Virus record (IMG/VR): IMGVR_UViG_3300013093_002504
Coordinates: 1-40,105 of that record
Reading direction: 5' to 3' (one strand)
Source: a virus
Length of the DNA stretch: 40,105 nt
Positions within the stretch are counted from its first letter, which is position 1. Every line of letters begins with the position of its first letter. Shown piece after piece: positions 10,001 to 31,400 of this stretch. The notes below the pieces were generated by a model that was not told the DNA's origin, searched no databases, and worked only from the letters and a program-made list of their open reading frames with translations. The translations under genes and the position numbers were made by a program.

Positions 10001-13000
10001 ACTGGCCCCGACGATACTAGCGTATGGATTATTCGTCGTTCGCCGTATGTTCAAAACGTTACAAACTTTGGAACAGGATGTTCTGGAGCAGTTGTAGACG
10101 GATCATTGCATAATGGTGGTACTAAAGCCATGCTACATAATGATTATACACAAGTATTAAGCGATGGTATCGGTGTTTGGATTCGTAATTCTGGTGCTAT
10201 TAGCGAGTGTGTGTCTGTATTCTCGTATTACTGTTATATCGGACACTACGCATCAGGTGGTGGACGTATTCGTTCTACTAACGGTAATAGTTCTTATGGT
10301 ACATTCGGTGTTGTAAGTTCGGGTTACGATGTTAATGAAATTCCAGGAACAGGAACAATTTTTAATCAAAGTACTCAAGTACAAGCTAGTGTAAGTGATG
10401 CGTTTGGTACTGCGGCTCAACTGATTAAATTAAACTTCATTAATGCAGGATCCGGATACTATAATCCATCCACAAACATGATAGCCCGAAGCAATGCGTT
10501 TACAACGTCTCCTTGGACTAACGATGGCAATGTATCATTTATTAAAAATAATATTGCACCAACAGGGTATTCAGAAGCATGGCTATTAACTGGCGCTCAA
10601 GGTACACCAGGTACTGGATATATTAGTCAAGCAATTAATATTAATCCTACAGGGCATTATTTTGCAAATATTAGTGGTACTTCTAATGGTACTGGTAGCG
10701 GCGCCACTTTTAATATAACAGCAACTCCTGCAGGATACACAGCATCTGTTGTAAACGGTGGTATAATATATACTGTAGGGCAGACTGTAACAGTATATGG
10801 ATCTGTATTTGGAGGACAAACAGGCACAAACGATGCAACAATTACTGTAGTCAGCGTTACAATGCCCCAGTGGACAAGTAATGGTTCAGCTACTAATGGT
10901 ACTTACTATTATTATTACAATGCAGTATATGGCTCAACTAATTATTATTTGGCTACAAGTACTGGTACATTTGGTACAACTCCTCCTGTTTTAGCTCAAA
11001 ACTTAACCAGCGGTAACGTTACATTAACATATGTAGGAACTTATACTGCTACTAGTTCTTCTAATATTAAAGTAGGAACAATACAAACGTCAGCAGGGTC
11101 TGTGTCAATTAGCGGAACTGTACCATCTGGAACAAGTCAAACTTATACTTTAAGTTGTTATGTTTATCCAGGTTCATCTAACACTGTAGATATACAAGCT
11201 ATATTTTCTGGATCTAGCACAGTTGTTAGTGGTGTAAGTTACAATGTAACTAGCAATGTTGTAACACCATATGCTGGATCTGCACTAGGTAATGTTACAA
11301 ATGCTGGATTATCACCAGTTAGTTACGGAGCCCAAAAGACATTAAAAGCTGGTTGGTACAGAGTTTGGTTAGCCGTCAGTGACTTAACCGGGTTGAATAC
11401 TACTTTAACTTTTAGATTATTCCCACAAGGTGCTGATGCTCCAGTGGCAAATAGTTATTCAATCATATACGGTTCTCAAGTTGAAATATCGACTGCATCA
11501 GGATCACCGAATTTTTATCTAGAAACAGCCAGTGGTATGTTTACAGCATACGCTAATTATGAAGTTACCGGAGCAGGTTTCGGAGCATCTTTAACTGGAG
11601 ATGAAAACAGAAGCAAAGCAATTTTTAATACTCGAATAATTACTGATAGTAATGGTTACACTGGTGGTGCAGGGTATGCTACTAATACGGCAAATGCAAC
11701 ACAAGGTGATTTGTATTCGATACAATTATCTAATTCGGATGCTGGGGTATACAATTATATTAATATGCGAGTTCTAATACAATCAGGTACAGGCGCAGGC
11801 CAATACGGTTGGATTGGATATTATAATAAATTGTCGACAACTGATTCAAACGGTATTGCCGCAAGAACAGCATTAATTTTAAAAGAAAGTGTAGATACAA
11901 TAACAGTTACGGCTACTCAATATAGTTTAACTCCTGCAAATAATTTAATTTCTTTAACTCCAGGAACTGATTTAAGTAGAATATATGTTAATCAAGTAGT
12001 ACAATTTGTACCAACTTATTTTAGTTCTACAATTACTTCTGCATCTCTAGGAACAATAACAGCAGTTGCAACAGTTGGTGGAACGACCAATACTATTCAA
12101 GTTTCAAGCACAGCTTCTTTATTCCTTAATATGCCAGTGATCTTTACATTAGGAGCTGGTACAGGATTTACTATAACAACCAATTACATTTATTACATTA
12201 TTAATATCTCAGGTAATAATATTCAAATCGCTCCTACTTTAAGTGGTCAGGCTATTCAATTATCTACAGTAGGCCAAATTGCTGGCAATACAATGATAAT
12301 CACATTCCCTAATTACTCATTGTATTTGACTGGTACAAATTCAACAGTTAATATGGTACCATGTATTCCTATTGAATTTACTGGAGTATCGTTAGGAGGT
12401 TTAACACTAGGTCAAAATTATTATGTAAATGATATTATTGACGCTAGCAATTTTACAGTATCTTCTACATCAATTTCACTAACAGCAACAGCTAGTGTTG
12501 GTGGATCGACTAATACTATCACAGTTGCGAGTACTGCTTCTCTAATTCCTTTAAATGCAATCGTGTTTACTGGTAACACATTTGATGCGGCCATTACAAC
12601 AAATACAACATATTATATTAGCAATATTACTGGAGGAACAAGTTTCCAAATAACATCTACGTTAATCAGAACAACAGCTACCGCTACAGTCTTTAGTACA
12701 AACGTTATTCAGATAAGCACATCAGTGTTATCTTGGCAAGCAGGACAACCAGTTATCTTTAGCGGCATTGCTCCAACTCGTAACTTTGGTGGAATTTTAC
12801 CTGAAACAATTTATTACATTTTAAATCCAAATCCAACTTTGAATCAAATTCAGATTTCAACAGATGGTATTAACCCTGTGAACTTAACTAGTGCAGTAGG
12901 CCAAATTAACGTAAGAACTGCTCCGGCAGCAAATGCTTTAGGTGGAGGTTCTGGCTCGATGTTAGCATCTACAACAGGGCCTCGTGTTCAAGTATCTAAT

Positions 13001-16000
13001 ACTATTGGTGTAGCAAGCACTATGACTGGAACATTCTCTTTATCTTTAATTGGCGGCTTAAATTCTTATACAAAATATTATATTACCGCTATTAACCCAG
13101 GCACTACACCAACAATATCGGTGAGTACTTCTTTGGCAGGTACTCCAGTAACTTTAATTACGGCCACAGGAACTATGCAGTTAGGTGCTAGTGGGTGGGA
13201 TAATTTTAACCCAGGTACTCCTAATGCAGTTGCTTTAGATAGCCAATCTATATATTTTATCGAACCTAGAGTAACATATTCATTGCCATCATGGTCACAG
13301 TCTTTAGGCACAGTTACAACTCCATTATCCGGAGCAACATGGCAATCGGTTACGTATGGAAACAACATGTTTATGGCAATGCCTAATGGAGGAACAGTTG
13401 GTGCAACATCGACTAACGGTTTAACCTGGACTTCAATAGCGCTACCATCCACTGTCGGTTCTTATACCGACGTTGCTTATGGTAATAACTATTGGGTTGC
13501 GTTAGGAACATCTTCAGGATCTAGTGTAGCTATATATTCTAATTCTGCAGGAAAAAGTTGGTATACTTCTAACTTACCTGCAACATATAATTGGACTAGT
13601 ATCTCTTACGGTAATGGTATATTTTGTGCTATTGCATCCAATTCAACACAAACTACATCAACACCTGTAACAGTTTCTTCAGCTAAATGGAATGCGGTAA
13701 GATACGGTAATGGATTATTGGTAGCATTAAGTCAAAATGGAGTTACTGGATATAGTACTAATAATGGATCTACTTGGAATTACGGTACCACTTTAAGTGC
13801 ATCTTATGTATGGAACGATCTTGCATATAACGCAGGTACAACAACATTTGTTGCGGTAGGTACAGCAGCCAGTGGAGCACCAGTTAGTGCATACACTACA
13901 ACTGGTTTAACATGGTTAACTGGTGGCACGATGAATTTATCAGCCGGCAATTTCCAATCTGTTGTCGCAAGCGGCTTAGGAGTTTATGCTACAGCAGGAT
14001 ATAACACTTCATCTATTGAAGTTAGTACAAACAGTGGAATAGCTTGGACAACTTATTCATTACCATCAGTTCAAAATTGGACTAGTATCGCTTACGGTAA
14101 TGGTATTTTTGTGGTAGTTTCTGGAGGAACTACTGCAAGTACCGCAGCCGCGTATAGTTTAGTTACTGGACAAACATGGACAGCAAGTACATTACCTGTT
14201 AGTGCAATATGGACTGGTATTGCGTTTGATCCGATTATTGGTATATTTGTAGCAATTGCACAAAATGGTACTACAGCTACTACCTCAAATGGCTATACTT
14301 GGACCAATACTACTAGTTCTGTTTTAACCAGTACTGCAACATTAAATTGGCAAAATATTAGATACGGTAACGGACAATACTTAGCTCAAAATCCTGGAGC
14401 AACTGCCGCACAAAGCTCGGCAACTAGTGTAGACGGTATCAATTGGTTGCTATGTCCAATGCCAAGCGTACAACAATGGGCCGATTGCGCATATAATTCA
14501 GTGTTTAATACTTGGTTAATGGTATCTGGAATTGCTACAGCAAGCACAACTTTTGCTATCGTATCAATTGTAGGACCAGCCGCATACTCTACTAACTTCG
14601 GTTATACTTGGTCAGCTAGTGCAACAGGTTTATTAACAACTAAATTCTGGAGTCAGGTAACATATGGTAATGGTGTGTTTATATGTATTGCAACAGATGG
14701 CACAACTGCGTTCAGTTCAGACGGAAATACTTGGATACAAAGTAACGCACCGACTAGTTCAAAAGTACTTTCTGGTGTAACTATTGCAAGTAGCGGAGGT
14801 TCATTTGCTTGTTCAGCAAGTCCGATACAGATAATACCCGGCCAGACTATGGTAATTACTGGTACTAATGTTGGAACCGGTGCAGTAGAAAACGGTAATT
14901 ATTATGTCTATAGTACTACTAACGGTGCAACACAATTTACGCTATCGTCGACATATCCAACATTTACAGCTATCAATACTACAACAGCTGGATCTCCGAT
15001 TGGATTATCATTTGCATTAGGTGGTACTCCAAACTATACAGGTATTGCTTGGGGCAACAGTCGTTTTGTTGCTGTACAGAGCGGTGTAGGTTTATTCCCA
15101 GCTTACACATTCGATGGAGTTAATTGGTATCAAGGCTTAACATATTTGTCAGCAACTTCTATTGGTTATGGACAAGGAGCATTTGTTGCAACTAATAATG
15201 CATCTACAACCGAATATTGTAGTGATGGTGGAGTTTATTGGTATCAACGAACCCTACCTTACGGCAATATTTCAAATGTCACTTTTGGTTTCGATTTAAA
15301 TAATAATGGATTGTTTGTAACATTATCAGGCACTGGTAGTGTAAGTGGTAATGCTACTGTTATTTACGAAGGAGTTAGAGGGCAAGGTCGTGCGCAGGTA
15401 ACATCTGGAGTAATAACATTAGTTACACAGTGGGAAACTGGATCAAATTATACTTCAACACCTACTACTACATTTACTGATTTTAATGCTCAAATAACTT
15501 GTTTAGTACAAGACAGATTAAGCAATGGTACATTGAGTAACCCGACATTTGTTAATAGAGGAACAGGATATAACACTACTTCTACAGCAATTGTAATTTC
15601 AGGAAACGGTTATGCTGATACATATCAAACAGGATACACTATTATTTGTAATAATTTGCAAACAGTACCTGCGGTAGGAAGCAATATTGTTATCAGTGGT
15701 GTGAGTCAGATTTATAAAGTAACTAGTGCTTATGCAGTATTTGGTACAGTAGCACCTTTTATCGAAGCTAACATTCAGATATCGCCTGCAATGACAGTAG
15801 CAAATAGTCCAGCGAATGTAACACCATTCTCTGTTCGTGCTTTGTATAGTCAAGTACGTTTAACAAACCATGACTTTTTAAGTATCGGTACTGGTAATCG
15901 AGAAAGAACAAATTATCCAAATTGGGATGAAACAACAGCCATACCAGGCAATGAAGCTGTTGAAATCAATCAAGGTCACGTGTTCTATGTTAGTACAGAT

Positions 16001-16450
16001 GAAAACGGTAACTTTGCTGTAGGTAGTTTGTTTGGAGTACAACAGTCAACTGGTACAGTTACATTAAGTGCTACACAATTTGGATTGATTGGTTTGAGCC
16101 AATTGAGTTTGGGTGGACTAGCAGTCGGCAGTAATCAAATTATTATTTCGCAATTTAGTACTGATCCTGCATTTACCGCGAACTCAGATGCGATTCTTCC
16201 TACACAAAAGGCTATTAAATCTTACATAACAAGTAGATTAAGTCAAGGTGGTGCTAATACATTTACCGGAACGTTGATTGCTGGTACAATAGAAGTAGGT
16301 AATCCTAATTTTATTCAATCATCTATTCCTAACGGTGTAGCAGGATCTAGTGTAAAGATGGGAAATAAAGTTTACATAAATGCAAAAGGTGTAGATGGCA
16401 ACATGGCGGCATTTGACTTTTATGGAAGAAATGCCTTCCATAGATCATAA
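7094..16450 (+). CDS. giant modular adhesin-like structural protein (3118 aa)
   Basis: CAGGA precedes ATG 7094. Domains in order: seven CBM5/12-like repeats (about 12-452) with the pattern GxW....Y..GD.V.YGG..Y.C...HTS...W; a TRIPIGTSGYELKVNG joint (about 474); a beta-helix start, YYVDTVSG...SWDAPFKTI (about 505-535); one RDAGYVIDAIIYDMQRGGN motif (about 588); GTYNEYLPIIVPENTSIVGD (about 727); a conserved helix core (about 923-1079) with HNGGT, DYTQVLSDGIGVW and GGRIRSTNGNSSYGTFG; an inserted jelly-roll module (about 1129-1484); YYI-type beta repeats (about 1600-2030); 14 propeller-like repeats (about 2070-2770); and a conserved C-terminal domain (about 2816-3118) with TNHDFLSIGTGN, STDENGNFAVGSLFGVQQST and PTQKAIKSYI. 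It is probably a trimeric or fibrous host-binding protein. The C-terminal domain resembles that of cyanophage and pelagiphage structural proteins. Confidence 0.8.
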   Translation: MSAEFKISKIRYTWVGPWTPNTSFIQDSVVSYGGQAFVCLVGNTSSSNFYNDLNVSPNPYWLQMTVGKQWGGTWSSNGFYTLNTIVTFAGNLYICTNSHTSSTFLSDFNNGDWALYLQENVWAGNWSTSTTYTVGQFVTYGGIAYECILGHTSAATVALGLEANQSAWTVWFKGVQYLGLWQQNYRYKLNDLVRLDANIYIATNSAGFNSGTSFNSSNWAIFIPGQEDNLTWSSSTTYQLNDAVIYGGTAYVSRSVNNLNNIPSLDSLDWAQFNVGYKIRGAWSSGNTYVTGDVVNKSGVLYEATTNNIGQDPQSTTAAVQYNSTGSSGTTIVVNSTTGLLPGMIATGVGFNSGQYISTITDGVTLVLDRAPDNVLSNGQTITFRDLNTSYWKLLIPGGTFTGFWSNIKSYSIGDQVVWINATYQCIQENSNVDPSTDAINAYWIKLISHSIINSMHTVGDMESYNSLTGPQYTRIPIGTSGYELKVNGSTNLPNWQQLNIVPAIYYVDTVSGVDDLLHGTSWDAPFKTISYTCNYIATGLYFPNATALLKANKAWMITEMYQWMLYQCANNISPFSTTSLFDPFYTQRDAGYVIDAIIYDMQRGGNSQIVAATLRWFYYGSQTQLVNNVVESSIAYFPPSLTYLLGLMIDVVAQNAPSQSYQTLNGISGINYIPQVTGLPAAEVGQGALPEINTLMSIAITALTNQNTYLVPSSNSGLTAIVNIKTGTYNEYLPIIVPENTSIVGDELRSTTVQPATSIELYVTQTSSITNTLTASTTVGLVDQMPLQFISPYVNNVSTAFDPLLVPGKTYYVLGSSITSTSFQLLDNPTTVFVGTINTGSNIIANVNSITSLKVGMNVSGTGIPNGTVISSLTQAISGISTITISNNATATLISQSFTATGNIVLVSSLTGSLLAYAGDCLKNMWYMTNGTTMRNLSNFGLLGQLSQVDQYGIATPTGGSYTSLNPGTGPDDTSVWIIRRSPYVQNVTNFGTGCSGAVVDGSLHNGGTKAMLHNDYTQVLSDGIGVWIRNSGAISECVSVFSYYCYIGHYASGGGRIRSTNGNSSYGTFGVVSSGYDVNEIPGTGTIFNQSTQVQASVSDAFGTAAQLIKLNFINAGSGYYNPSTNMIARSNAFTTSPWTNDGNVSFIKNNIAPTGYSEAWLLTGAQGTPGTGYISQAININPTGHYFANISGTSNGTGSGATFNITATPAGYTASVVNGGIIYTVGQTVTVYGSVFGGQTGTNDATITVVSVTMPQWTSNGSATNGTYYYYYNAVYGSTNYYLATSTGTFGTTPPVLAQNLTSGNVTLTYVGTYTATSSSNIKVGTIQTSAGSVSISGTVPSGTSQTYTLSCYVYPGSSNTVDIQAIFSGSSTVVSGVSYNVTSNVVTPYAGSALGNVTNAGLSPVSYGAQKTLKAGWYRVWLAVSDLTGLNTTLTFRLFPQGADAPVANSYSIIYGSQVEISTASGSPNFYLETASGMFTAYANYEVTGAGFGASLTGDENRSKAIFNTRIITDSNGYTGGAGYATNTANATQGDLYSIQLSNSDAGVYNYINMRVLIQSGTGAGQYGWIGYYNKLSTTDSNGIAARTALILKESVDTITVTATQYSLTPANNLISLTPGTDLSRIYVNQVVQFVPTYFSSTITSASLGTITAVATVGGTTNTIQVSSTASLFLNMPVIFTLGAGTGFTITTNYIYYIINISGNNIQIAPTLSGQAIQLSTVGQIAGNTMIITFPNYSLYLTGTNSTVNMVPCIPIEFTGVSLGGLTLGQNYYVNDIIDASNFTVSSTSISLTATASVGGSTNTITVASTASLIPLNAIVFTGNTFDAAITTNTTYYISNITGGTSFQITSTLIRTTATATVFSTNVIQISTSVLSWQAGQPVIFSGIAPTRNFGGILPETIYYILNPNPTLNQIQISTDGINPVNLTSAVGQINVRTAPAANALGGGSGSMLASTTGPRVQVSNTIGVASTMTGTFSLSLIGGLNSYTKYYITAINPGTTPTISVSTSLAGTPVTLITATGTMQLGASGWDNFNPGTPNAVALDSQSIYFIEPRVTYSLPSWSQSLGTVTTPLSGATWQSVTYGNNMFMAMPNGGTVGATSTNGLTWTSIALPSTVGSYTDVAYGNNYWVALGTSSGSSVAIYSNSAGKSWYTSNLPATYNWTSISYGNGIFCAIASNSTQTTSTPVTVSSAKWNAVRYGNGLLVALSQNGVTGYSTNNGSTWNYGTTLSASYVWNDLAYNAGTTTFVAVGTAASGAPVSAYTTTGLTWLTGGTMNLSAGNFQSVVASGLGVYATAGYNTSSIEVSTNSGIAWTTYSLPSVQNWTSIAYGNGIFVVVSGGTTASTAAAYSLVTGQTWTASTLPVSAIWTGIAFDPIIGIFVAIAQNGTTATTSNGYTWTNTTSSVLTSTATLNWQNIRYGNGQYLAQNPGATAAQSSATSVDGINWLLCPMPSVQQWADCAYNSVFNTWLMVSGIATASTTFAIVSIVGPAAYSTNFGYTWSASATGLLTTKFWSQVTYGNGVFICIATDGTTAFSSDGNTWIQSNAPTSSKVLSGVTIASSGGSFACSASPIQIIPGQTMVITGTNVGTGAVENGNYYVYSTTNGATQFTLSSTYPTFTAINTTTAGSPIGLSFALGGTPNYTGIAWGNSRFVAVQSGVGLFPAYTFDGVNWYQGLTYLSATSIGYGQGAFVATNNASTTEYCSDGGVYWYQRTLPYGNISNVTFGFDLNNNGLFVTLSGTGSVSGNATVIYEGVRGQGRAQVTSGVITLVTQWETGSNYTSTPTTTFTDFNAQITCLVQDRLSNGTLSNPTFVNRGTGYNTTSTAIVISGNGYADTYQTGYTIICNNLQTVPAVGSNIVISGVSQIYKVTSAYAVFGTVAPFIEANIQISPAMTVANSPANVTPFSVRALYSQVRLTNHDFLSIGTGNRERTNYPNWDETTAIPGNEAVEINQGHVFYVSTDENGNFAVGSLFGVQQSTGTVTLSATQFGLIGLSQLSLGGLAVGSNQIIISQFSTDPAFTANSDAILPTQKAIKSYITSRLSQGGANTFTGTLIAGTIEVGNPNFIQSSIPNGVAGSSVKMGNKVYINAKGVDGNMAAFDFYGRNAFHRS
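7127..8450 (+). repeat. seven tandem CBM5/12-like repeats
   Basis: Seven units of about 50 residues follow the consensus W-x-G-x-W, Y...D.V.YGG..Y.C...HTS, W. The sixth is split by an inserted TTGLLPGMIATGVGF-type repeat. The 5309-residue paralogue also has seven units, at 16520-18180, so the number appears conserved. This module class is known from chitinases and phage fibres and usually binds polysaccharide. Confidence 0.75.
10478..11548 (+). other. module inserted in the first giant gene: jelly-roll-like domain
   Basis: The paralogue reads continuously from FENAGSAYTN to TISGAGYN, while here the equivalent NAGSGYYN and YEVTGAGF are separated by about 356 residues. The insert includes SNAFTTSPWTNDG, a GSGATFNIT...VGQTVTVYG segment, and AGWYRVWLAVSDLTG with IIYGSQVEIS...FYLETASG. 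The last pattern is typical of phage carbohydrate-binding jelly rolls (by memory). Confidence 0.65.
13300..15400 (+). repeat. fourteen propeller-blade-like repeats
   Basis: About 14 copies of the pattern W.SI.YGNG.FVA......AYS..G..WT...LP can be aligned by eye, for example NWTSISYGNGIFCAIAS, NWTSIAYGNGIFVVVSG and FWSQVTYGNGVFICIATDG. The form resembles BNR/sialidase-type beta-propeller blades. Fourteen would give two seven-bladed propellers. One extra beta repeat is inserted between copies 11 and 12 (about 14775-15030). Confidence 0.65.
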
Positions 16451-16498: not shown

Positions 16499-19400
16499 AT
16501 GGCAGAATTTAAATTAGGTAGAATTAAGTTTGTATACCAAGGTACTTGGACAACTAGCACCACATATGTTGTTGATGATGTAGTTACAAACGGTGGAAAA
16601 ACATATATTTGTGTCTTAGCACATACTTCTTCTGCATTATTTGCAACAGATTTAGCTGGCGGCGCTGGTACAACTAAATGGAATTTGATAGCAGATGGTC
16701 AGTCATGGAAAGGCACATGGGGTAATTCTACTTTATACAATCCCGGAGATTTAGTTGAATACGGTAGTACAATATATCAATGTACTACAGCAAATACTAG
16801 TGTAGCGTCTACATTAACAATAACTGCTACTGGACTTGCATTATCCAGTGGTACTGCAACATTAACTTTTGCTAATCAAACATCTGGTATTCCATTTGTT
16901 GTAGGACAACAAATTACATTGTCAGGATTTAGTCCATCTCAAACCAGTGGTACTGTAAACAATGTTAATACAACATTTACAGTTCTCACATGTAGCAATA
17001 CTAATCTTACATTTGCATTGACAGGAACATATGTTCTTGCAACACCCGGAACTGTATCAGGAACCGGTTACTTAGAAAGTCAAATTAATGACTGGACAGT
17101 TTTTGCTTCAAATCTAAACTGGAGTAATGCTTGGGCAACAAGTACAAAATATAAAATTAACGATTTTGTCTACTATGGCGGAGTGACTTATGTTTGTAAT
17201 ACTGCTCACATATCTGCAAGCACAGCAACAGCCGGACTAGAAAGTAATTCAGGATTCTGGTCAACATTTAATGCTGGATTAAATTACATTGGTACATGGA
17301 CAAGTGCCACACGTTACAAATTAAATGATATCGTTAAGTATGGTGCAGATCTTTGGATTTGTACAGTTCCACATACATCATCTGGATCAACAATTAATAC
17401 AACAAACTTTAGTATGTTTGTTAACGGATTAGAATTTCAAAATTCTTGGTCTAATTCAATCAACTATGCAATCGGTGATTTAGTTACGTATGGAGGATAT
17501 ACTTACACTGCTATTCAAAATAATATCGGCCAAGTACCTAGCACTCAAACTGCTTATTGGCAAATCTTTACAACTGGATTAACTTTTTCAGGAGCTTGGG
17601 TATCGGGTACTGCATATAAAATTGGTGATATAGTTACTTTAGGCGGATTTACTTATGTTGCGGCTGCTGATAATACAGGATCTCAACCCGCTACTGGTAA
17701 TGCAAATTGGAGTCAATTGAATCCCGGTATACGTTGGGCCCAACCATCCGTATATACCTATTCTGGAATAAGCGGAATTAACGTAGTTGGAACAGGAACT
17801 GCGGCAACATTCGATATAACACTAACTGGTACAACATATTCTGTAGTAGTTCACACTGGCCAAGCTGGCGGTGGATATTCAGTAGGTAATACTATTAAAA
17901 TTCTAGGAACAAACCTAGGAGGTTTAAGTCCTGCTAATGATATTATATTAACCGTAGCAACAGTTCTTGGAAATGCAATTGCAACAGTCACAGTTACAAG
18001 TGGTTTTGCTGTTACATGGAGAACAGGTATAACTTATCTTATCGGCGATGCAGTTTATTACGGCAATAGCAGTTATATTTGTGTAAGTTCTCATGTAGGT
18101 TCAACTGGTGTTAATGACCCAGTTAGTGATACATCTGCAACATACTGGAACATATTGGCTCAAGGCGCAAATGGTGGTGTGCTAACATCAACTGGCGATA
18201 TGGTATATTTTGGAGCAAATGGTGCTACTAGATTACCAATCGGTACCGATGGACAAATCCTTCGTGTTAACGGTAATGTACCATCATGGGCGTATTATGG
18301 TTTATTACAAAATATTGTTTACGTAGCTCCAACAGGACAAGACATAGTAGGAAATAGTCAAGGACAAAGTTTAGACAAACCATGGGCTTCTTTATTATTT
18401 GCATGTAAACAAATTGAAGATGGCTATTTAAACACAAATGCTGGTCTTGCTTTAAAAATTAATAAACAGTTTATGTTAAAAGAAGTTAATAACTGGATTC
18501 TAAATCAGTATTCTTTTAATGTAACTGGATCAAGTGTATCTGGAAATACATTTATAGTTGGCGGTTCTAGTACAAGTAGTCAAACAACGACTGCAAACAT
18601 GTATTATGGTATGCCTATTACATTTACAACGGCTGTTACTAGTCAAATAACTCCAGGAACCGTTTACTATGTAAACACTATTCCTAGTGCCACAACATTC
18701 ACTATTAGTACAAGCTATAAGAGTGGAGCAACATTACCAATTACTGGTGGAAGTTCTACTTCAGGTACTGTTATTTTTAGTTATACACAATCAAAAGCAG
18801 AACGTGATGCAGGTACACTAATTGACGCAGTAATATTTGACTTAACTCACGGTGGAAACTTATATTGTATCACCGCTACACAAGCATTTTTCTCTACATT
18901 AACAAGTTATATTACAACAAATGCTGGCTATGAAATGACAGTATGGATTGCAAGTTTACAATATTTAGAAAATACTTTATTTTCAGCTGTTTTAACAAAT
19001 AGTCCTCCTCAATACAACTATCAAACTACGCAAGGTATTCCTGTTTCAAGCCAAGCAATTCAAAATACTTCAGAAATTGCAACGTCAAACATTGAACAAG
19101 GAGCATTAACTACTGTAAAAAGTTTGTTAAGTATTGTAACAAATGCATTGGCAGCTGGCACATACGCTGGAAATCCTTTACTACAAAGACCACATACTTC
19201 AATTTATTTAAAAACTGGTACGTATAATGAATATGGTCCTATTGTAGTTCCGCAAGATACTGCTATCTTAGGCGATGAATTACGTAGTACCATAGTTCAA
19301 GTAGCATCTGCTCAACCATATTTAGGTAATGATACAACTAGAACAGCATCTGCTTTACGTCGTATTCAGTGGTTGTTACCTGCTATTTCTGCAAATATTC

Positions 19401-22400
19401 CTGTAATTCCAACTTCTACCAATACTGCAACACAACAATATCTTGGTACAAGTCCTTACGGAACATTTACATCAAATGTCAATACCAATGTAACTTTAAT
19501 TCAAACTATTTTAGCTGGTGGATTAAGTGCAGTTCCTGGTGCCGGCACAACTACAATTACAATTACTGCGGGATCAATTACTGTTCCTAACACTGGAACT
19601 TATACTTTAACAACACCAGTTGGATTTGGATCAACTTTATCTAACATTGCATTTGCATGTAGTAGTAACGCAACTGGTTCAACTGTTGGATATGATGGCG
19701 GTATAGCACAAATTCAACAAAACATTTCTTTTATTCAGACTGAAATAGCCGCGTTTATGAACGCTAACTATAATTCTGTATGGACTGCAATGGGTTCAAC
19801 AAATCAAGGATATACATTACGTGATGTCGGTTATTTGTTAAATTCAATTATCTATGATATGAATTACGGTGGTAATACACAAAGCCAAATAGACGGTTTA
19901 GCATATTATAGTTTAGGTACAGCTAGTATCATTAGTGGTTATCAGGCAGCAACAGTTGCCATGATGACTCGTTTACAATCAATTATTCCGTATATTGTTA
20001 CAGCCAACACAGGTAGTTGGACAAAAACTTCAGGTAATACTGCTAGTCAAGTGACATCAGGTGCTGCCGGATCAACAAATGCCGCAACATTTGCAACCGG
20101 TTTAGTTACTACTGTACTAAATTGGGTTAATAGCACTAACGGAACTGGTAACAGTTTAAGTACAGGTGCAGGTTTAAACGGAACTATTCCTCCATGTACT
20201 TCTTGGGTAAACAGTGCAAACTTAACTGCATTTAATAATATACAAACAAACAGAACAGCTATTCAAACATGGATTAAAAATTGGGTAGCTAACGACTATC
20301 CAGCAATCAGCTCGTCATTAACATATCGAGATGCTGGTACTATTACTGATGCGTTAAGTTATGACTTGTTATTAGGTTCTAATTATTTTAGTATGGTTTC
20401 TGGTCGTGCATTCTATAGATTAGTAACAAGTGCAGAGAACTTAGTAGGAAATGTTAATAATGAATTAACAGTTACCGAACAAGCAATTAATTATATTGGT
20501 GCGCAAGTTGCAGGATATGCAAATGGTTCGACTACTCCTGCTGGAGCTTCTGGATCTGCAATCAATCTTGGAAATTCACAAGTTATACCATCATTAGTTG
20601 CAAATAGTCAATTATTACAAAATATTCTTTCTAATGGCTTAACTTATAGCCCTGTGTTTGGATCTGGTAGTGTTATTATTTCACAATCAGCATTGGCATC
20701 AGTTGTGAATAATTCTACTACAGGTATTGCTTATACTTCAACAACAGTAGCATTACCAGTAGGAACTCCTATTACAATTACAAGAACATCATCTGGTACA
20801 GCGATTACTGGTAATTTAACAATAGGCGGTGTGGCTATATCAGCTATTGCTTCTGGTGCAAGTGTAACTTATTACACTGGTAGTACAACAACTGCTACAT
20901 CAACAGCTTTGTATGCAAATTATGCAAATGCAATTGCAAGTTCAAGCCCGTTAACAATTGGAGGAACAACTACAACTGGTGCTACATTCACTATTGGAAT
21001 TACTACACCAACAGCTGGAACATTTACTTTAACAACTCCAACAGGGTTTAATACTTCTTCGTTGACAAATACTGCTTACTCTATTACAGGATTAGGAGTT
21101 TCTGGATATACCGGTAACACCACTGGCGATACAACTGGGTATGGCTATGGTGCGGCTAATATTGCGGCTAATATTTCATTCTTACAAACTGAAATTGCAA
21201 ATTATCTAAATGCTTATACTGGATCTGGATTCAGTTGGAACGCTTTATCAGCAGTTAATCAAGGTAAAACTTTACGAGATTTATCATATATTTTACAGTC
21301 AGTTCAGTATGATATGACTTATGGTGGTAATTTACAAAGTCAAACACAAGGTGTTGGTTATTATTCTTTAGGAGTAGCATCATTATCTCCTGCATCTACA
21401 GTGGCAGCATCAATTGCGTCATTGACACGATTACAAACAATTATTCCTTATATTGTTAATGGTACTACTGTTGGTTGGACTCCAAGCACCGGTAATACTG
21501 CAACTCAAGTTATTGTTACTTCTGGAACATACACTAATGCGGCAACTTACGCACAAGCGTTGATTGGTAATATAATTAATTGGATTAATGGTACTAACGG
21601 AACTGGTAATAGCGCAAGTACTGGTATTGGTTTATCTGGAACAGTTCTTCCATGCACATCTTGGGTGTCGGCTTCCGCAATTAGCGCCTTTAATGCAATA
21701 AACGCTCAGAAGAGTTATGTACAAACACAAATTCAAACATTTGTAGCTACACAATATCCTAACAACGTCACTAATTTAGCATTAACTTATCGTGACGCTG
21801 GTACTGTTGTAGATACATTAAACTATGATATGTTGTTAGGCTCTAATTACTTTACATTAGTTTCTGGCAGATCGTTCTATAAGGCTGTATCAAGCGCACA
21901 AGCTCTAGTATCTTCTACAGAATTAAGTGCAACTGAAATTGCTACACAATATATTGCATATTATATCAGTGGTATTGCTACACAAGCGCTAACACTACCA
22001 GCATTGACTGGCGATTTTGGTAATCCTGCGGCGGTTAATTTAGTAGTTAATAATACTGCAATTATCCAGAATATGTTTGCAAATGGATTAACAATTACTC
22101 CTGGCATACAAAATAATACAAACTACGGTGCTAATTTAGGTATTGTTCAAGAACCAGCATTTAATATGCCGACTGTAGCAAACTATAATACATATTATCT
22201 TGTAGGCTATGGTTATGCTGTGACACAACTTCAAAATAACTATCAATTTATTAAAGATGAAATTGTAGCATATTTGATTCAAACTATTGGTGGCTCAACA
22301 TGGGCAAATTATGGTCCAACATATCAGGCAGAAACAATTAGAGATTTAAGTAATATTTTAGATGCTTTGCAATATGATATGACTTATGGTTGTAATGACC

Positions 22401-25400
22401 AATCATTGATTGCAGGTCGTGCTTTCTATAGTTTAAATACACCATTAATTGTTAGCCCTTACACAGCAGGCGTTACAGCAGCCTTAAATAGATTGGCAGC
22501 AATCATTAGCAGTATTGTGACTGCTAATGCAATAAGCCCAACTTCAGGTAATACTACAAGTCAAAGTACAAGTGGTACAGCTGGATCTGCGGCCGCTGGT
22601 GCTTTTGCAGTGGCTCGTGTTGCCGATGTTCAATACTGGTTAGCTAACGGTGTACAAAACACAACAACTGGAGTAGGTACAGCAACATTTAGCGGTACAA
22701 CAATGACAGTTAGTGCTGTTGCAAGTGGTACTTTTGCCGTAGGACAAGCAGTGACTGGTACAACATTAACAACAACTGCAACAGCAGTTAACGGCAGTAC
22801 AGGTGTAGTGACATTAACATCTACTGTTGGTTTAGCATCAGGTATGCCAATTACATTTAGTGTTGCGTACGGATCTGGAAATCAAGGACTGTTTGGAAAC
22901 TTATCTGCTACAACTTACACAATTAATGCTGTTGTAGGTTCTACTGTTACACTATATAATTATGGAACAACAACTGCACCAAGCCTTACAACTGCAACAG
23001 GCCAACTGACAGTAACAGCAGGCGTTGCTCCAGGAACTTATATTACATCAATTGGCAGTACAGGCGGCGGAACCGGTGCATATACAGTAAGCGTAAGTCA
23101 AACATTGTCAACTGCTACAACAGTAACTGGAACATTTACAATTACACCTGTAGTGTCGGGCGCATTTAACTTTGCTTCACCTGCCAATCAATTGTCATTT
23201 AATGCAATCCAAGCTCAAGCAACATTAATTGCAAATGACGCTCAAGCATGGGTAACACGTTTTTTCCAAAACGAAGGTCCAAGTTTATCATTAACAAATA
23301 GAGATGCGGCCTATGTTGTTACAGCATTAAGTTACGATGTATTATTTGGTAGCAATTTCTATAGTATTATTAACGGACGAGCATTTAATAGATTAATTCC
23401 AAGTATTGCTCGTTTACAAGGCAACTACGCTGATTCAGCATATGGTGCAATTGGATTTATTGGACAAAAAATTAAAGTTATCGCATCAGCAGGCTCGGCA
23501 GTGCAAACACAGACAACTATTGACGATATGATTGCACAAATCTATGGTCAGCCAATAACTACTTGTGTGTTCAATGCTACTGTTAATGGAACACAATTAA
23601 TAGTGAACAATATTACTAGTGGTGCAATTGTACCAGGTATGCCAATATCTGGTATTGGTGTTGCAACTGGTACCTCAACAGTATCTGGCGCAACTACTAC
23701 ACTATCTGGAATTTATATTTCTAGTAATACTGGTGTATTTGGTTGTACAGCATTAACAAGCCCATTAGTGGTAGGTCAACAAGTTACTATCACTGGAACA
23801 TTCTCAGCAGGTTCTATTAGTGGCTATACTTCTGGTACAATTTACTATGTTATTGGTAGTCCGACAACTACATTATTCCAATTGTCAGCTACTCAAGGAG
23901 GAACTGCTTTAACAACTGTAGCCGCTGGATCAAGCGGAAGTCCATTAACAGGCATAACATTTGTAGCAAGCCCAACAACATGGTTGTTAAATTATAGCCA
24001 ATCAGTAAGCTCGACTGTTACATCTATTCAGAATATTATTCCTACATCTAATTTAATTACAATGGGAACTACTGCTGGAATGGTGCCAGGATTGAGTATT
24101 ACAATTACAGGTACAGCGATAGGCAATTTAACTGCTGGAACATACTATATTAAGCAAGTATTAAATACTACTCAACTAACAATTAGTTCATCTTACAATG
24201 GTTCTGTATTCAGTGTTACTCCGCTAACAACACTTAGTGGTGTTACTGTAACAAGTTCTGCAGGAACATTTACATGTACAGCGGCAAGCACAACATTAAC
24301 TACTGGACTACCAGTTACTATTTCTGGAACAAATACAGGTAGTGGTGGAATTTACGGATACAGTAGCCCAACTACATATTACATTGTTAATACAAATGGT
24401 TCAACAACATTTACATTATCAGCTTCTATTGGTGGTTCAGCAATTGTTACTACCGTAGGAACTCCAACTGGTTGGACATTTGCAGTAGGATCACAAGGTT
24501 CAATGGTTGCTACCGTATATGGAATTTACAGCGGATTAGCATTAACAACTAATCTTGTTGGCACAAGTACTAATATTCCTGTGACAGCAGTGACTACAAG
24601 TACTAATGCAATTACGTTAAGTAGCGATGCAGGTGTTTATATTAATATGCCTGTTGTGTTTAGCGGATTGCCAAATAATATTAACACAACTGCTATTTCA
24701 ACTACAACAAGTACAAATGTGATTACTTTAGCCGCAAGTGCAAGTAGTTTAGGAATTGTTGCAGGTCAACAAGTTTACTTCACTGGAATGATGTTAGGTA
24801 AGATTGTATTCAACCAAAATTATTACGTAATTAACCCAACAGGTAGCACTATTCAAATTAGTAATACATTAGGCGGAAGTGCTGTTTCATTAACAAGCAG
24901 TCCAACATTAAGCACAGTGGCTATTACAGGTACATCAGGTCAATTCTCTTGTGCAAGTTATAGCACTTTATATGTTGGCCAAGCAATTACAATTAATGGT
25001 ACATTATCTGCTGGTACAATTAATACTAACTCTACCATAACAGCTCAAACATTCTATATTATTGCTACAAATGGTTCAACAACATTTACGTTGTCAGCTA
25101 CTTTAGGTGGCGTAGCAATAGTTACAACTACAAGTGGTGGCACAATTACTGGTACAACATTTGGTGTAAATGCACAAATGAATGTTGTAGTTAATACAGC
25201 AGGCGGCCTAGTAAACGGCGATACTTATTGGGTTAATAGCGTTGCTTCTGGAACTTATCCAGCAGCCGGTACAACTATTACTGTTTCATCTAGTTATAAG
25301 AGTGGTACAGCAGTCGTAATTACAAATAGTTTGACTGGGTTGACTGCAACAGCAAGTATTGGATTATATACTAATCAAGGTATTGCTAGCAAGATTGTTA

Positions 25401-28400
25401 ATGGTATGAGTCAAGTATGGGGTAATCCAACTAATTCATATCAAAGCTATCCTGGTTACAACAATACTATGACAACCATAATGGGTGCAGAGTTATTCCG
25501 TCTAAATAAATCATTCTTAGCAGGTGAAGCCGCATTCTGGACACAGGCTAATTATGGTTCTACTTCAACTAGCACTACATCTGGTACTAATATAATTACA
25601 ACTAGCACTCCACATAATTTGTTAGTAAATGACCCAGTACAATTTGGTTTAACTGGTTCTATATTCGAATATGGTTTAAATTCTACTACAATTTACTGGG
25701 TATTATCTACACCAAGTTCAACTACATTTACAGTTACAACTACTCAACCAGGTACAGGCGCACAAAGTGCAGTATCATTAAGTGGTGGTACTGGAGCAAT
25801 GGGAGTAAATTATTATATTATTACTTCTAAAGCTACACGTGATGCAGGATATCACGTTGATGCTATGATTTACGATTTAGCGCTAACTGGAAATTATAAA
25901 TCTACTAGATCTGTACAATTATATTTGTCAGCCGCAAATGGTGCCTTATATACAAACTTATTCCATGTACGTAATGGTACTGGTATCCGTAACATGACAT
26001 TGAATGGCATGGGAGGAACATTAAGTTTACCAAATAGTTTAGGTACAAAACGTCCGACAGGCGGTATTTACACTTCATTAGATCCAGGATTCGGACCAAA
26101 TGATTCAAGTGTATGGGAATTCATTCGTTCATGCTACATTCAAAACGTTACTAACTTTGGTAATGGTTGCGTAGGATTAAAGATTGATGCCGCATTACAC
26201 AATGGTGGTAATAGATCTATCCTAGCTAACGATTACACTCAAGTGTTGTCGGACGGTATTGGTGTATACTGTACAGGTCATGGAGCCTTAACAGAGTGTG
26301 TATCAGTGTTTAATTACTACTGCTATTCTGGTTATTTTGCAGAATATGGCGGACGTATACGTGCTACAAACGGTAATAGTTCTTACGGTACATTCGGTGC
26401 AGTCGCAGAAGGTACTGATAGTTATGAAATTCCAGGTTATTCTACAATTAACAATCGTGGAAATCCTGCGTACATTACTAACGTGGTTACAGATGCAACA
26501 AATTATGTGTTCCGTTTAGAGTTTGAAAATGCTGGAAGTGCATATACTAACTATGTTCCAACAATTAGTGGCGCTGGTTATAATGCAGTTGCAATCGGAG
26601 ACGAGTTCCGAGATTCGGCTGTTTTTGAATCACGTTTAATTGACTTGAATAACGGTACAGGTGTTGGCGGTAGTAATTATTTGACTATTAGCAACACAGC
26701 ACAAAGTGGTACAGTTGGGCAAATTACTATTGCTAACTCTGATACTCAGTTAAGTACTGCTTACATTGGAATGCGAGTGTTTTTAACAGGCGGAACTGGT
26801 GTTGGACAATACGGTATTGCTCTAAACTATACATTTGGTTCAAAGATTATCAATGTATATCGTCAAAACTTTGTACCATTGACTATTATTAGTAATAGCA
26901 CATCGGTATTTACAGTATCGACAAATACAAATACAATGTATGCTAACCAACCAATTTATCTTAGTGCAACAATCGCAGGATTAACTTTTGCAACAGTATA
27001 TTATGTTGTTGGTTCGACATTAAGTAATAATGGTACTACGTTTAGTCTATCAACTTCAAGTGGTGGTGGCGCCGCAACATTGACAGCAACTAGTTCAACT
27101 CCAGCTGTTATGAATGGTTCAACTATTGTAGGAACGACATTAACAGTTGGAACATTAGCATCAGGTACTATATATGCAGGTATGTTATTATCTGGTTCTG
27201 GTATTGCAAGTAACACTTACATTTCAGCTAATATAAGCGGAAGTGGAAATGGTTCAACATGGACTGTTACTACGAGCCAAAACTTAGCTTCAACAAATAT
27301 TACAGGAACTATTTCTGTACAGTTATATGAAGCAGGATGGGATCATGCTGTTCCAGGTTATGCTACAGCTAATGTCTTAGATGCTACTACAACTTATATC
27401 ATAGAACCTATGTTATCATATAGTTCTCCTGGTTTTACAGCAACAACAACTTCTATAACTTCAGGACAATACGGATCAGCAACTTATGGTAGCGGTTCTT
27501 TTGTTGCTACAAGTTCGCCAGGAATAGTAACATCATATAGTACAAATGGTTCTACATGGAACGCTGGCGGATCGCTTCCTTCTAACACAGCATGGAATAA
27601 CGTTGTGTACGGTGGTGGCCAAGGTGCTAAAGGCACTGCTGTAATCGGCGGCCTAGGCGGATCTGGTGCAATATTATCAGCAATATTAGGTTCTGGATCT
27701 ACAGCTGGTCAGATAATTGGAATCAATATTATAAATGGTGGTAATAATTATTCAACACCTCCTACTATTGTTATTACTGACAGTACAGGAAACGGAGCTG
27801 TTGCAATTGCCGAAGTATTAAGTGGAGTTGTTACAAATGTTTATATGAACATTACTGGTAGTTTATATTCTTCCAGTCCAACTGTTACAGCGATTACTAG
27901 TGAATTAAGTGGCATTACTGTTAACAGCTGGGGTAATAATTATTTTAGTAATCCAACAGTAACTATTGCACCTCCGTTCAATGCAACATCTTGGGTATCT
28001 GGAGGAACAGTAGTAAATGGCAATTATTATTATAATGTAGATACTACAGTTTCACCAAATGTAACTAACTATTATCAAGCAGGCGCAACTGGAACTTTTA
28101 GTTCAACAGCACCTACCTTTACTAACAAGTACTATGGAAAATCTGGTGCTAGTGCAACTGGTATCGGTGCAAGCGGTACTTATGGCGTTGCTTTGACATA
28201 TGTAGGAAGTTTACCGATAGTAACGGCTAATTTAACTACTAATGGTGTAAGTAGCTACACAGTTGTACAAGCAGGTTTTGGTTACTCAACTATTCCTACT
28301 GTTACAGTTGTTGATCCTTATGCGGCTTACGCGGCAATTTCTGGTTCATCAAATGCATTTGCATATAATACTGGAGCACCTACTGCAAGTATTCAAGTAG

Positions 28401-31400
28401 TAGTTGCATCTAGTTCTGGTACAACTATTACTTTAGCATACGCGGTATCATTACCACAAAATACACCAATTACATTTGCATCAAGTTTTGGTGCAGGTCC
28501 AGGTGTAACTGCTAGCACAACATATTATGTTGCCGCAACAACAAGTAGTTCAACAAGTTTAACATTAGCATCATCAATTAATGGTAGTGCAATTACTATT
28601 GGAACAACTACTGGTTTAGCTATTATTGGAACAACATCTAATTCAACTACTTTAACAGCCGCTTGGCTATCAGGTAGTTCTACTGGACTAACTACATTAA
28701 AATCTTTAGCTTATGGTAATAATTATTATATTGCTGTTGGCGGAAGTGGTTCGGCTGCCGCGGTATCTTTATATAATAATACAAGTTTAGCTTCAGCATC
28801 ATGGGTAAATCAATCTAGTAGTATTACTGCTAACAGCTCAGGTTATACCGCAGTAGCATACGGTGCTGGTTTATTCTGCGCAATTGGAGGCACTGTAAGT
28901 TCCTTTATGCAAAGTAATCCAACAAGTTGGGCTACAGGCGGAACATTAACTAGTAAAACTTGGGCAAGTTTAGCATACGGTAATGGACGATTTGTAGCAT
29001 TAGCTACTGATGGTACACTACAATATACCTATAACTGGCAACCAAGTTTGTGGACTGGTACAAGTGCTACAAATAACACATGGATTACTGTAAAAAATAA
29101 TCCGTTAGTTACAACCGGAGTAACTACTTGGAGTAATATTAAGTATGCAGAAGGTTTATTTGTTGCAATTTCATCATCTCCAAATGAAGTATTCACAGCA
29201 ACTTCTGTTAGCGGAAATAATATTTCAGTAAGTAACACAACTGGTTTAGTAGCAGGTGCTACAATTATTCCAACAGCAGTAACAGAAATAACTACTGCGA
29301 GTGCTACTACACATTCAACAGCTAGTTCTTTAGGTATTATTGGTAACGGTGCATCTAGCCCATCAGCAGGAACCATCCTTACACCAATAAGTTCTATTAC
29401 TGGAACATATGCTGTAGGAGCGTTATTAACAAGTTCCGGAACAATAACTGCTGGAACTTATATTACAGCAAGTAATTCATTTACTTCAACTTCATCAACA
29501 ATTAGTGGATCAACATTAACAGTTGGTGGTACTATAACTGGTACTGTAAGTGTTGGACAGCAAATTACAGGTCCAACATTTAGTAATACTAGTGCGATAA
29601 TTTTAAATAGTTATTACACTAGTGCAAGCCCAACTAATGTATTGGTAATGCCAGCATCGGCACAAACTGGTACAACATTTGTTGGCGGATTACTAAGCGG
29701 TTCTGGTATTACTGCAAATACAACTTATATTACAGGACAAACTACTTCAACTGGTACTATTAGTATTGCTATTGGTTCTACTGCAAATATTACAGCAAGT
29801 ATTAGTGGAACGACTTTAACGGTTACTGCTAATAGCGGAACTATTAATATTGGTATGGTATTAGGCGGCGGAACTGTAGCGGCAGGAACATTTATTGTTG
29901 CTAACTCTGCAGGTACAACAACAAGTTCAGTAAGTGTATGGACTGTTAATATTAGTCAAAGTGCTACTGTAACTACAGCAACACCATATACTGCTACTGT
30001 ATCATCGGCAAGCGGTACATTCTTCCCAGGTATGACATTAACTGGTGGAACTGCAACAACAGGAACTATAGTTACTGCACAAGTTTCGAGTACAGCTGGT
30101 GCAGGCGGTACACAAAACTATTCATCAGGCGGCGCGGCAGGCGCATCAACAGTGACATTGGCTGCTGGTACAGGATTTGCCGCTGGTCAATTGATTACAG
30201 GTAATGGTATTTTTGCTAATACATACATTACAAGTGTAGCTGGTGCAGTAATTACAATTAGTCAACCATTCTACTCACAAGCATCTGGATCTTATACAAG
30301 TTTCACAGCTAGCTCTAATGGAGGTTATTATGTAACACCAGCACAAACTGGTACAACAGCAACTGGTGGTAATGCTTATACAGTTACATCTGGTGTTGGA
30401 TTTATTGCAACAACTACAATTTCTGGACAATTGAATTCGTATATTGTTGCAACAGGATCTGGATCAGGCGGTGCGGGTACATATACAATTAATAACAGCG
30501 TAACAATTAGTTCAGGTACAACAATTAACGGCCAAAGTTATACTGTATCTACTAGCCAATTGACAACTAGCGCAACTATTACAGGTACATTAGATTCAAT
30601 TACTGTCGGCAGTACAGCAGGAATGGCTATTGGAGAACCAATTGTATTCAGCGGCACAACTGGTGGTGGTATTACAAATGGTTCAACTTATTATATAACT
30701 GAAATTATTTCTAGTACCGCTTTAAGTGTTGGTTCAACTTATCTTGCAACAAGCAATGTAACAGTTAACGGATCTACTCCTCCGTCAAGCGTAGTTGCTG
30801 GCGGATTACTTGGAGGATTAACATCTGGAAATACTTATTATATTGCAAGTATTAACTCAGGTGCTAATACAATCCAAGTAAGTACAAGTAGCACATTAAG
30901 TCCAGTTCTTACATTATCAGGCGGTGTAGGTGCATGGACTGCTGTTGCAGGTGAAATTGGCGGTGGTAACAACTATGTTGCTACAAGTTGGGATGGCTTA
31001 AATTGGTATGTGACTACAATGCCAGCATTAAGTTCTTATCAAGGCCTTGCATTTGGTAATCCACAAAATGCTACTTTAGGTGCAGTGCCTACATGGGTAG
31101 CTGTTTCTAGCTCGCCAGGCACTACGGCAGCATTGATTCAGACTGGTGCTAGACCTTTAGGACGAGTTAAGATTTCAAGCAGTACTATTTCGGAAGTACG
31201 CATGATTGAACCAGGAAGTGGATTCCCACGTGGAAATGTATCTGGTACAACATCTACTACTAATTTGATTATAGTGGATAGCACTGTCAATTTAGCCGCA
31301 AATATGCCGGTTGTCTTTAACGGAACAAGTGCAGGAAATATTACTACAGGACAATATTATTATGTTGTCGGTGGAACTATTACAAGTACAACATTCCAAA

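Follow-up and report, generated by a model that had tools for sequence, protein, structure and literature searches.

A repeated helical domain, likely related to phycobiliproteins, in a giant tail-fibre-like protein of an IMG/VR virus

The IMG/VR virus record IMGVR_UViG_3300013093_002504 (positions 1 to 40,105; this whole stretch of 40,105 nucleotides is called the window here), from an uncultured virus that resembles cyanophages, carries two large, paralogous open reading frames (ORFs) for tail-fibre-like proteins. On the plus strand, as are all the features described below, lie a giant ORF of 5309 residues (16499..32428) and, ahead of it, a paralogue of 3118 residues (7094..16450). Both match phrog_9851, annotated as 'tail fiber protein', and in the giant ORF each half does so separately (E 4e-92 and 2e-53). 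The subject of this report is a helical domain that recurs along the giant protein. By computation we find a tandem repeat with a predicted globin-like fold, a remote relationship to phycobiliproteins, and a copy number that varies by pairs among relatives.

The repeat array of the giant ORF

An earlier note on this DNA had described an expansion of about 2200 residues between a beta-helix cap and core, with eight copies of a motif in the large protein and one in the paralogue, and had taken it for a new repeat family that lengthens a fibre. The copy counts hold: the pattern RD[AVLI]x4[DNTQ]x3[YF]Dx3[GT]xN has eight matches in the giant protein (residues 769, 1108, 1277, 1593, 1765, 1948, 2268, and 3114) and one in the paralogue (residue 589), and it has none in 1000 shuffles of the 5309-residue sequence. 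The spacing as first written was one residue too long: four positions, not five, stand between A/V/L and D/N. From the end of the cap landmark (TGTYNE...GDELRST, 19214..19291) to the start of the core landmark (HVRNGTGIRNM, 25964..25996) we measure about 2220 residues, close to the length first proposed. The paralogue, whose cap counterpart lies at 9272-9349, is also much as described, spanning the same landmarks in 175 residues (about 525 bases, against an estimate of about 500).

A whole-domain profile search places six full copies in this interval, in the order A1 B1 A2 B2 A3 B3, together with two partial copies; the full copies make three A-B pairs. Right after the cap comes the C-terminal half of a copy (19319..19564; profile A7 positions 86-163, E 2.6e-5), followed by A1 (19667..20155, E 8e-38) and B1 (20192..20650, E 1e-25), A2 (21113..21616, E 3e-33) and B2 (21650..22117, E 4e-27), and A3 (22199..22714, E 6e-31) and B3 (23186..23695, E 2.5e-16). 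The last partial copy, which holds the RD helix, lies before the core (25823..25939; profile A7 positions 44-82, E 5.5e-9), and its motif starts at nucleotide (nt) 25838, just beyond the end at 25830 that had been given for the feature. Repeats in the DNA fit the tandem units: their starts lie 1455-1509 nt apart, in one case 1065 nt. The first copy does not lie between cap and core. This copy 0 (18758..19180; profile A7, E 4e-14) precedes the cap, at the position that the paralogue's sole copy occupies before its own cap (8720..9088; profile A7, E 3e-16), and by eye it has a beta segment inserted upstream of its RD helix.

By profile boundaries, the helical copies make up about 1100 of the 2220 residues. 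After B3 there follows a stretch of about 700 residues (23696..25750), beta-rich by eye and without a convincing helical copy, in which the sole domain match has an E-value of 0.97 (25478-25576). It contains beta-rich repeats of the GxxYYVxxxxxTTFTIS kind and short DNA repeat pairs, and similar beta-rich stretches, again judged by eye, break up the copies in the related loci L001, L020, and L022.

At least 588 confirmed domain stretches were found in one scan of IMG/VR. Across 528 ORFs from 108 loci and the window, an iterated profile identified 624 copies in 121 ORFs, a count that includes the same places repeatedly (L001, L019, and L103 overlap, L020 and L021 are near duplicates, and L002 and L005 are one record, among others). 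The nonredundant extended set holds 470 copies, and it is the source of the residue percentages and of one hhalign run given below. Each domain-bearing ORF has between one and 23 copies. ORFs of three IMG/VR loci, L083, L085, and L093, reach 23, 20, and 20 copies, respectively, with a shorter spacing of 108-120 residues for many of these.

Predicted fold and relation to phycobiliproteins

The motif marks a domain of about 150 residues that is predicted to be all-helical, in agreement with the helical character first suspected for the motif. An AlphaFold2 model of A2-B2-A3 from the window (506 residues, covering A2 except its first 15 nt, all of B2, and A3 except its last 69 nt) is nearly all helical, with a predicted local distance difference test score (pLDDT) of 79.6 and a predicted template modelling score (pTM) of 0.68. 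When this model was compared with the PDB using Foldseek, 49 of the 50 matches listed were phycobiliprotein or phycobilisome chains and one was a haemoglobin; with VIA-align, all 50 matches listed were phycobiliprotein or other phycobilisome chains, with a best Z-score of 16.1. Against predicted viral structures the model had 20 matches at E<=0.001, the named ones being proteins of cyanophages or uncultured Caudovirales. A single copy from locus L051, of the kind that bears a Cys ahead of the motif, was modelled with a pLDDT of 93.3 and a pTM of 0.84. All 50 structural matches listed for it were again phycobiliprotein or phycobilisome chains, and its predicted structure superposes best with a Z-score of 16.5 and a root-mean-square deviation of 2.0 Å over 131 residues. 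As regards the N-terminal X-Y helical hairpin of phycobiliproteins, most of the listed alignments begin at chain residue 22-35 and some at 3-4 or 16; the residues upstream in the phage protein belong to the preceding repeat. The predicted models share with phycobiliproteins the globin-like helices A-H, and in this phycobiliprotein-like fold the motif corresponds to helix E.

Because helical bundles may reach high Z-scores by chance (a note to the tool warns that helical folds inflate them), the sequences were tested separately. A profile was built from 16 phage copies (named phage records supplied 15) and compared with 177,635 distinct PDB sequences; 40 of the 41 matches at E<=10 were phycobiliproteins. 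The best was phycocyanin alpha (E 0.0031), with the phage KCARDIGY aligned with kckRDlGy. A second profile, built from 104 copies of the environmental loci and the window, gave 35 phycobiliproteins among 36 PDB matches (best E 4e-4). In the opposite direction, a profile of nine phycobiliproteins matched 68 of the 528 ORFs at E<0.01, and all 68 were domain-bearing. The giant window protein scored E 0.0037 summed over its repeats, and the best single stretch in the whole search scored 1.3e-5, compared with 2.1 for the best domain-less ORF and 0.84 at best for reversed ORFs. In hhalign, the phage domain and the phycobiliproteins were aligned with probabilities of 93.4% and 93.5% (P about 2e-7); the reversed alignment gave 0.2% and 20 column shuffles gave <= 0.2%.

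Several observations weigh against this relationship. The Foldseek matches of the A2-B2-A3 model in the PDB all have E >= 0.09, the L051 copy has no such match at E<=0.001 (best 1.3e-3), and the structural support comes entirely from predicted monomer models. The phycobiliprotein profile was built from just nine sequences, which represent four subunit types. With this profile, 53 of the 121 domain-bearing ORFs miss E<0.01, and the paralogue's copy was not found. The Pfam phycobilisome family PF00502 is absent at E<=10 for nine queries and at E<=1 for both large window ORFs, and the individual sequence matches are each modest. Moreover, about half of the cap-core insert is something other than the helical domain. 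Because the sequence searches and the structure searches both pick out phycobiliproteins, we consider remote homology likely, despite the miss by PF00502. The inflated Z-scores of helical folds and the modest E-values would also suit a chance resemblance, in which an unrelated helical bundle merely looks globin-like. We regard this as most improbable, since both kinds of search, run in both directions, single out phycobiliproteins, the signature of the bilin-bearing helix stays in register, and the decoys fail.

The nearest phycobiliproteins are phycocyanin alpha by sequence and phycoerythrin or phycocyanin beta by fold. Unlike phycobiliproteins, the phage domain stands in tandem inside giant proteins, lies outside the reach of the Pfam model, is without clear N-terminal X-Y helices and, in the window copies, is without the Cys. 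The alternating types A and B of the phage loosely recall the alpha and beta subunits, by way of analogy only. A further relative is smURFP, which was engineered from an allophycocyanin subunit to bind biliverdin and, like the phage domain, is a short phycobiliprotein domain; it is a weak match of the 104-copy profile (E 2.5, counted among the 35 phycobiliproteins).

The idea of a new family unrelated to known ones is not supported. The fold family is already known; searches of openly licensed papers turned up no account of a phage virion that contains a phycobiliprotein-like domain, nor of the fold serving there as a tandem module. The earlier note had said that a match to a known family with an enzymatic role would count against it; a known family there is, with a role in light harvesting, not in catalysis. 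As for an enzymatic role of the motif itself, no catalytic family stood above the cut-off in Pfam or PHROGs, and Lactonase (E 0.039) and the like fell far below the cut-offs.

Occurrence in cyanophages and the bilin-attachment site

When one cyanophage copy was used as a tblastn query, 368 of 50,697 phage records were matched: 301 of Synechococcus phages, 56 named 'Cyanophage', 10 of Prochlorococcus phages, and one single-cell marine virus. Thus the names of 367 of the 368 are those of cyanophages, and the domain is not peculiar to the giant window protein. This wide distribution rests on the Cys-bearing version of the domain; with the window's own unit as query, tblastn matched a single phage record, and separate searches of viral contigs gave 1, 5, and 6 loci. 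Among 16 chosen phage records, which were those already fetched and not a random sample, 14 carry the domain, with a maximum of 13 matches in S-WAM2; it is absent from P-SSM2 and from the fragment AG-345-E02. The domain-bearing genes are annotated as tail fibre, short tail fibre, baseplate wedge, VrlC, or virion structural protein, and the domain falls unnamed within phrog_4527, phrog_5342, phrog_18802, phrog_3442, and phrog_701. The giant tail-fibre, gp7-like baseplate wedge, and VrlC-type proteins of cyanophages share one to several copies of it with the window protein, which differs from them by having three A-B pairs between cap and core and by lacking the Cys.

A peptide-pattern search of 84,980 species genomes returned four loci, all of them probably on phage contigs. 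Three (L109, L110, and L111) are contigs of the Rhodobacteraceae bin Water_Bin34 with giant phage-like genes of 12, 12, and 11 copies. All these copies bear the Cys except the last, weak one in L109 and in L110, and the bin probably combines several phage contigs with a bacterium. The fourth, L112 (NZ_RMVE01000006, from an assembly of Nonlabens xiamenensis), has the domain and a psbA-type gene on one 188-kb contig and is probably a cyanophage genome inside a bacterial assembly.

The near-confinement to records named as cyanophages, and homology to an abundant antenna protein of the host, might suggest that the domain mimics and docks on parts of the host phycobilisome, or makes contact with a receptor, instead of acting as a spacer. 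We judge this very unlikely. A scaffold would fit better with its presence in baseplate proteins and with arrays that reach 23 copies, and phycobilisomes lie inside the cell. Moreover, P-HM2, whose host is Prochlorococcus, carries the domain, and phycobilisomes are lacking in marine Prochlorococcus (PMC2984593).

The start of helix E offers a more specific link with phycobiliproteins, in which the bilin is attached to the aligned Cys and is contacted by the Arg and the Asp. A Cys-x-Arg-Asp signature opens this helix in most phage copies and aligns with the Cys-Arg-Asp of phycocyanin alpha; by hidden Markov model columns, Cys, Arg, and Asp are kept in 87%, 93%, and 97% of the 470 nonredundant copies. 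In the nine window copies, Arg and Asp are present in all nine and Cys in none, Thr or Ala standing in its place. According to a regular-expression count, which missed 299 copies, Cys is also absent from L001, L020, L021, L022, and L105, is mixed in L023, and is present throughout L106 and L073. The Cys being gone in the window clade, covalent pigment at that site is not expected, and to judge from these residues the copies of this clade most likely carry none. The Arg-Asp pair, which persists where the Cys has been lost, may be structural. A constitutive disulfide within the domain was also considered as a reason for the Cys conservation; it is unlikely in general because a second Cys column is sparse (19%), and the first Cys stands without the second in 315 of 457 copies.

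The high conservation of the signature, in register with phycocyanin alpha, raises the possibility that the Cys-bearing majority still binds bilin, so that baseplates and fibres would be chromoproteins, loaded by a phage CpeT-like lyase or by host enzymes, with secondary loss in the window clade. The weak match to smURFP points the same way, as does the company that the domain keeps: CpeT (PF06206) occurs in 12 of the 16 chosen phage records, and in nine of these 12 (S-RIM32, ACG-2014e, S-CAM4, S-RSM4, S-H9-1, S-WAM2, ACG-2014h, S-CAM1, and AG-345-P14) it is found upstream of the giant tail gene with the repeats, at a distance of about 2 kb or less. We nevertheless think it unlikely that the domain binds bilin. 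The Arg and Asp stay in all nine window copies and in most other copies that lack the Cys. The nine adjacencies are not independent, because the phages share gene order, and CpeT does not adjoin the giant tail gene in S-SCSM2R, syn9, and P-HM2. CpeT is absent from DSL-LC03 and B23, which do have the domain; a bilin reductase occurs in three of the 16 records, one of which, P-SSM2, is without the domain. Among 50 of the 60 environmental domain-bearing records listed, many of them fragments, CpeT was found in two and psbA/psbD in one. These cases speak against a general link between gene and domain, and we rejected neighbouring bilin genes as proof of bilin binding.

According to a review (PMC10452541), phage CpeT, present in 31 of 153 cyanophages, helps to pigment the phycobiliproteins of the host; the same source places such bilin genes only in myocyanophages, apart from the PebS of one podovirus. 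A bolder proposal would have cyanophage virions built partly of domesticated phycobiliprotein arrays that still bear covalent bilins at Cys-x-Arg-Asp, with the phage cpeT, pebS, pcyA, and ho1 genes serving, at least in part, to pigment or mature the virus's own baseplate and fibres and not the host antenna. The A-B pairs of a trimeric fibre would then form alpha-beta-like discs, and the window clade would have kept the scaffold and lost the pigment. We put this forward as an unlikely speculation.

Copy number among relatives and the role of the array

We return to the array as a structural element. Orthologues of the giant window protein were identified by the copies that bound the array, first and last, and their copy totals are six (L020, L021, and L022), eight (the window and L001), and ten (L023 and L106); in L105, an incomplete record, five copies are visible. 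L073 has eight copies with short linkers. The orthologues have two, three, or four A-B pairs. A tree of 62 copies, taken from the window together with seven loci, is based on 100 columns and leaves many forks unresolved. In it the B-type copies form one clade (support 100/98), and the last A-B pair is positionally orthologous across the window, L001, L020, L022, and L105; the pairs before it arose by duplication within lineages, as with copies 1 and 3 of L023.

Because the number of pairs differs among orthologues, the array lengthens the protein. Its tandem arrangement, its variable number, and its share of about half of the extra cap-core length bear out the protein side of the proposal that the repeat lengthens a fibre, and elongation of the fibre itself is what we infer from them. 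We consider it probable, with good confidence, that a globin-like helical domain, remotely homologous to phycobiliproteins, serves as a building block of this giant tail-fibre-like protein, and that the array of A-B pairs between cap and core lengthens or widens the shaft. One copy sits ahead of the beta-helix cap, and three A-B pairs with a partial copy at either end have probably been inserted between cap and core. Duplication or recombination has most likely made the array larger or smaller in steps of complete A-B pairs, and together with the beta-rich stretches it would extend or broaden the shaft. In the window, the array is probably a structural spacer made of a domesticated phycobiliprotein-like domain. 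Its place in a fibre of the virion is suggested by annotation and architecture, and the domain may have been captured from a cyanobacterial host. Taken as a whole, the earlier reading of the locus is partly supported.

In hundreds of sequenced cyanophages, a fold used for light harvesting appears to have become a repeated module of tail and baseplate, contained without a name in giant proteins and accounting for a large part of their genes. The domain profile can be used to annotate such genes, and the array illustrates a possible route by which fibre length could change by whole A-B pairs. The finding also enables a direct test of why myocyanophages carry bilin-attachment genes, which have hitherto been assumed to serve the antenna of the host (PMC10452541).

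The surroundings of the array also deserve mention. At the N-terminus, both paralogous ORFs carry the carbohydrate-binding family CBM_5_12 (PF02839). In the giant ORF it is matched with E 2.6e-34 in seven stretches within nt 16499-23998, and we delimit the N-terminal region with the seven stretches at approximately 16499..18300, its end being set by eye. The beta-helix family PF13229 has no match within the window. Genes for a Nol-like carbamoyltransferase, phrog_8954, and others lie nearby, a neighbourhood that recalls the tail-fibre module found in T4-like cyanophages, P-SSM2 and S-CAM1 among them. In P-SSM2 and S-CAM1, the tail-fibre genes PSSM2_301 (L006) and SXBG_00229 (L007) have the beta-helix cap landmark of the paralogue without the helical domain; therefore, fibres without the domain exist. 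Finally, segments resembling YGNGxFVAxxxxGTxxxSxDGxxW, with the look of a beta-propeller, are repeated by eye in the C-terminal halves of both window paralogues and are seen, also by eye, in the baseplate protein of DSL-LC03.

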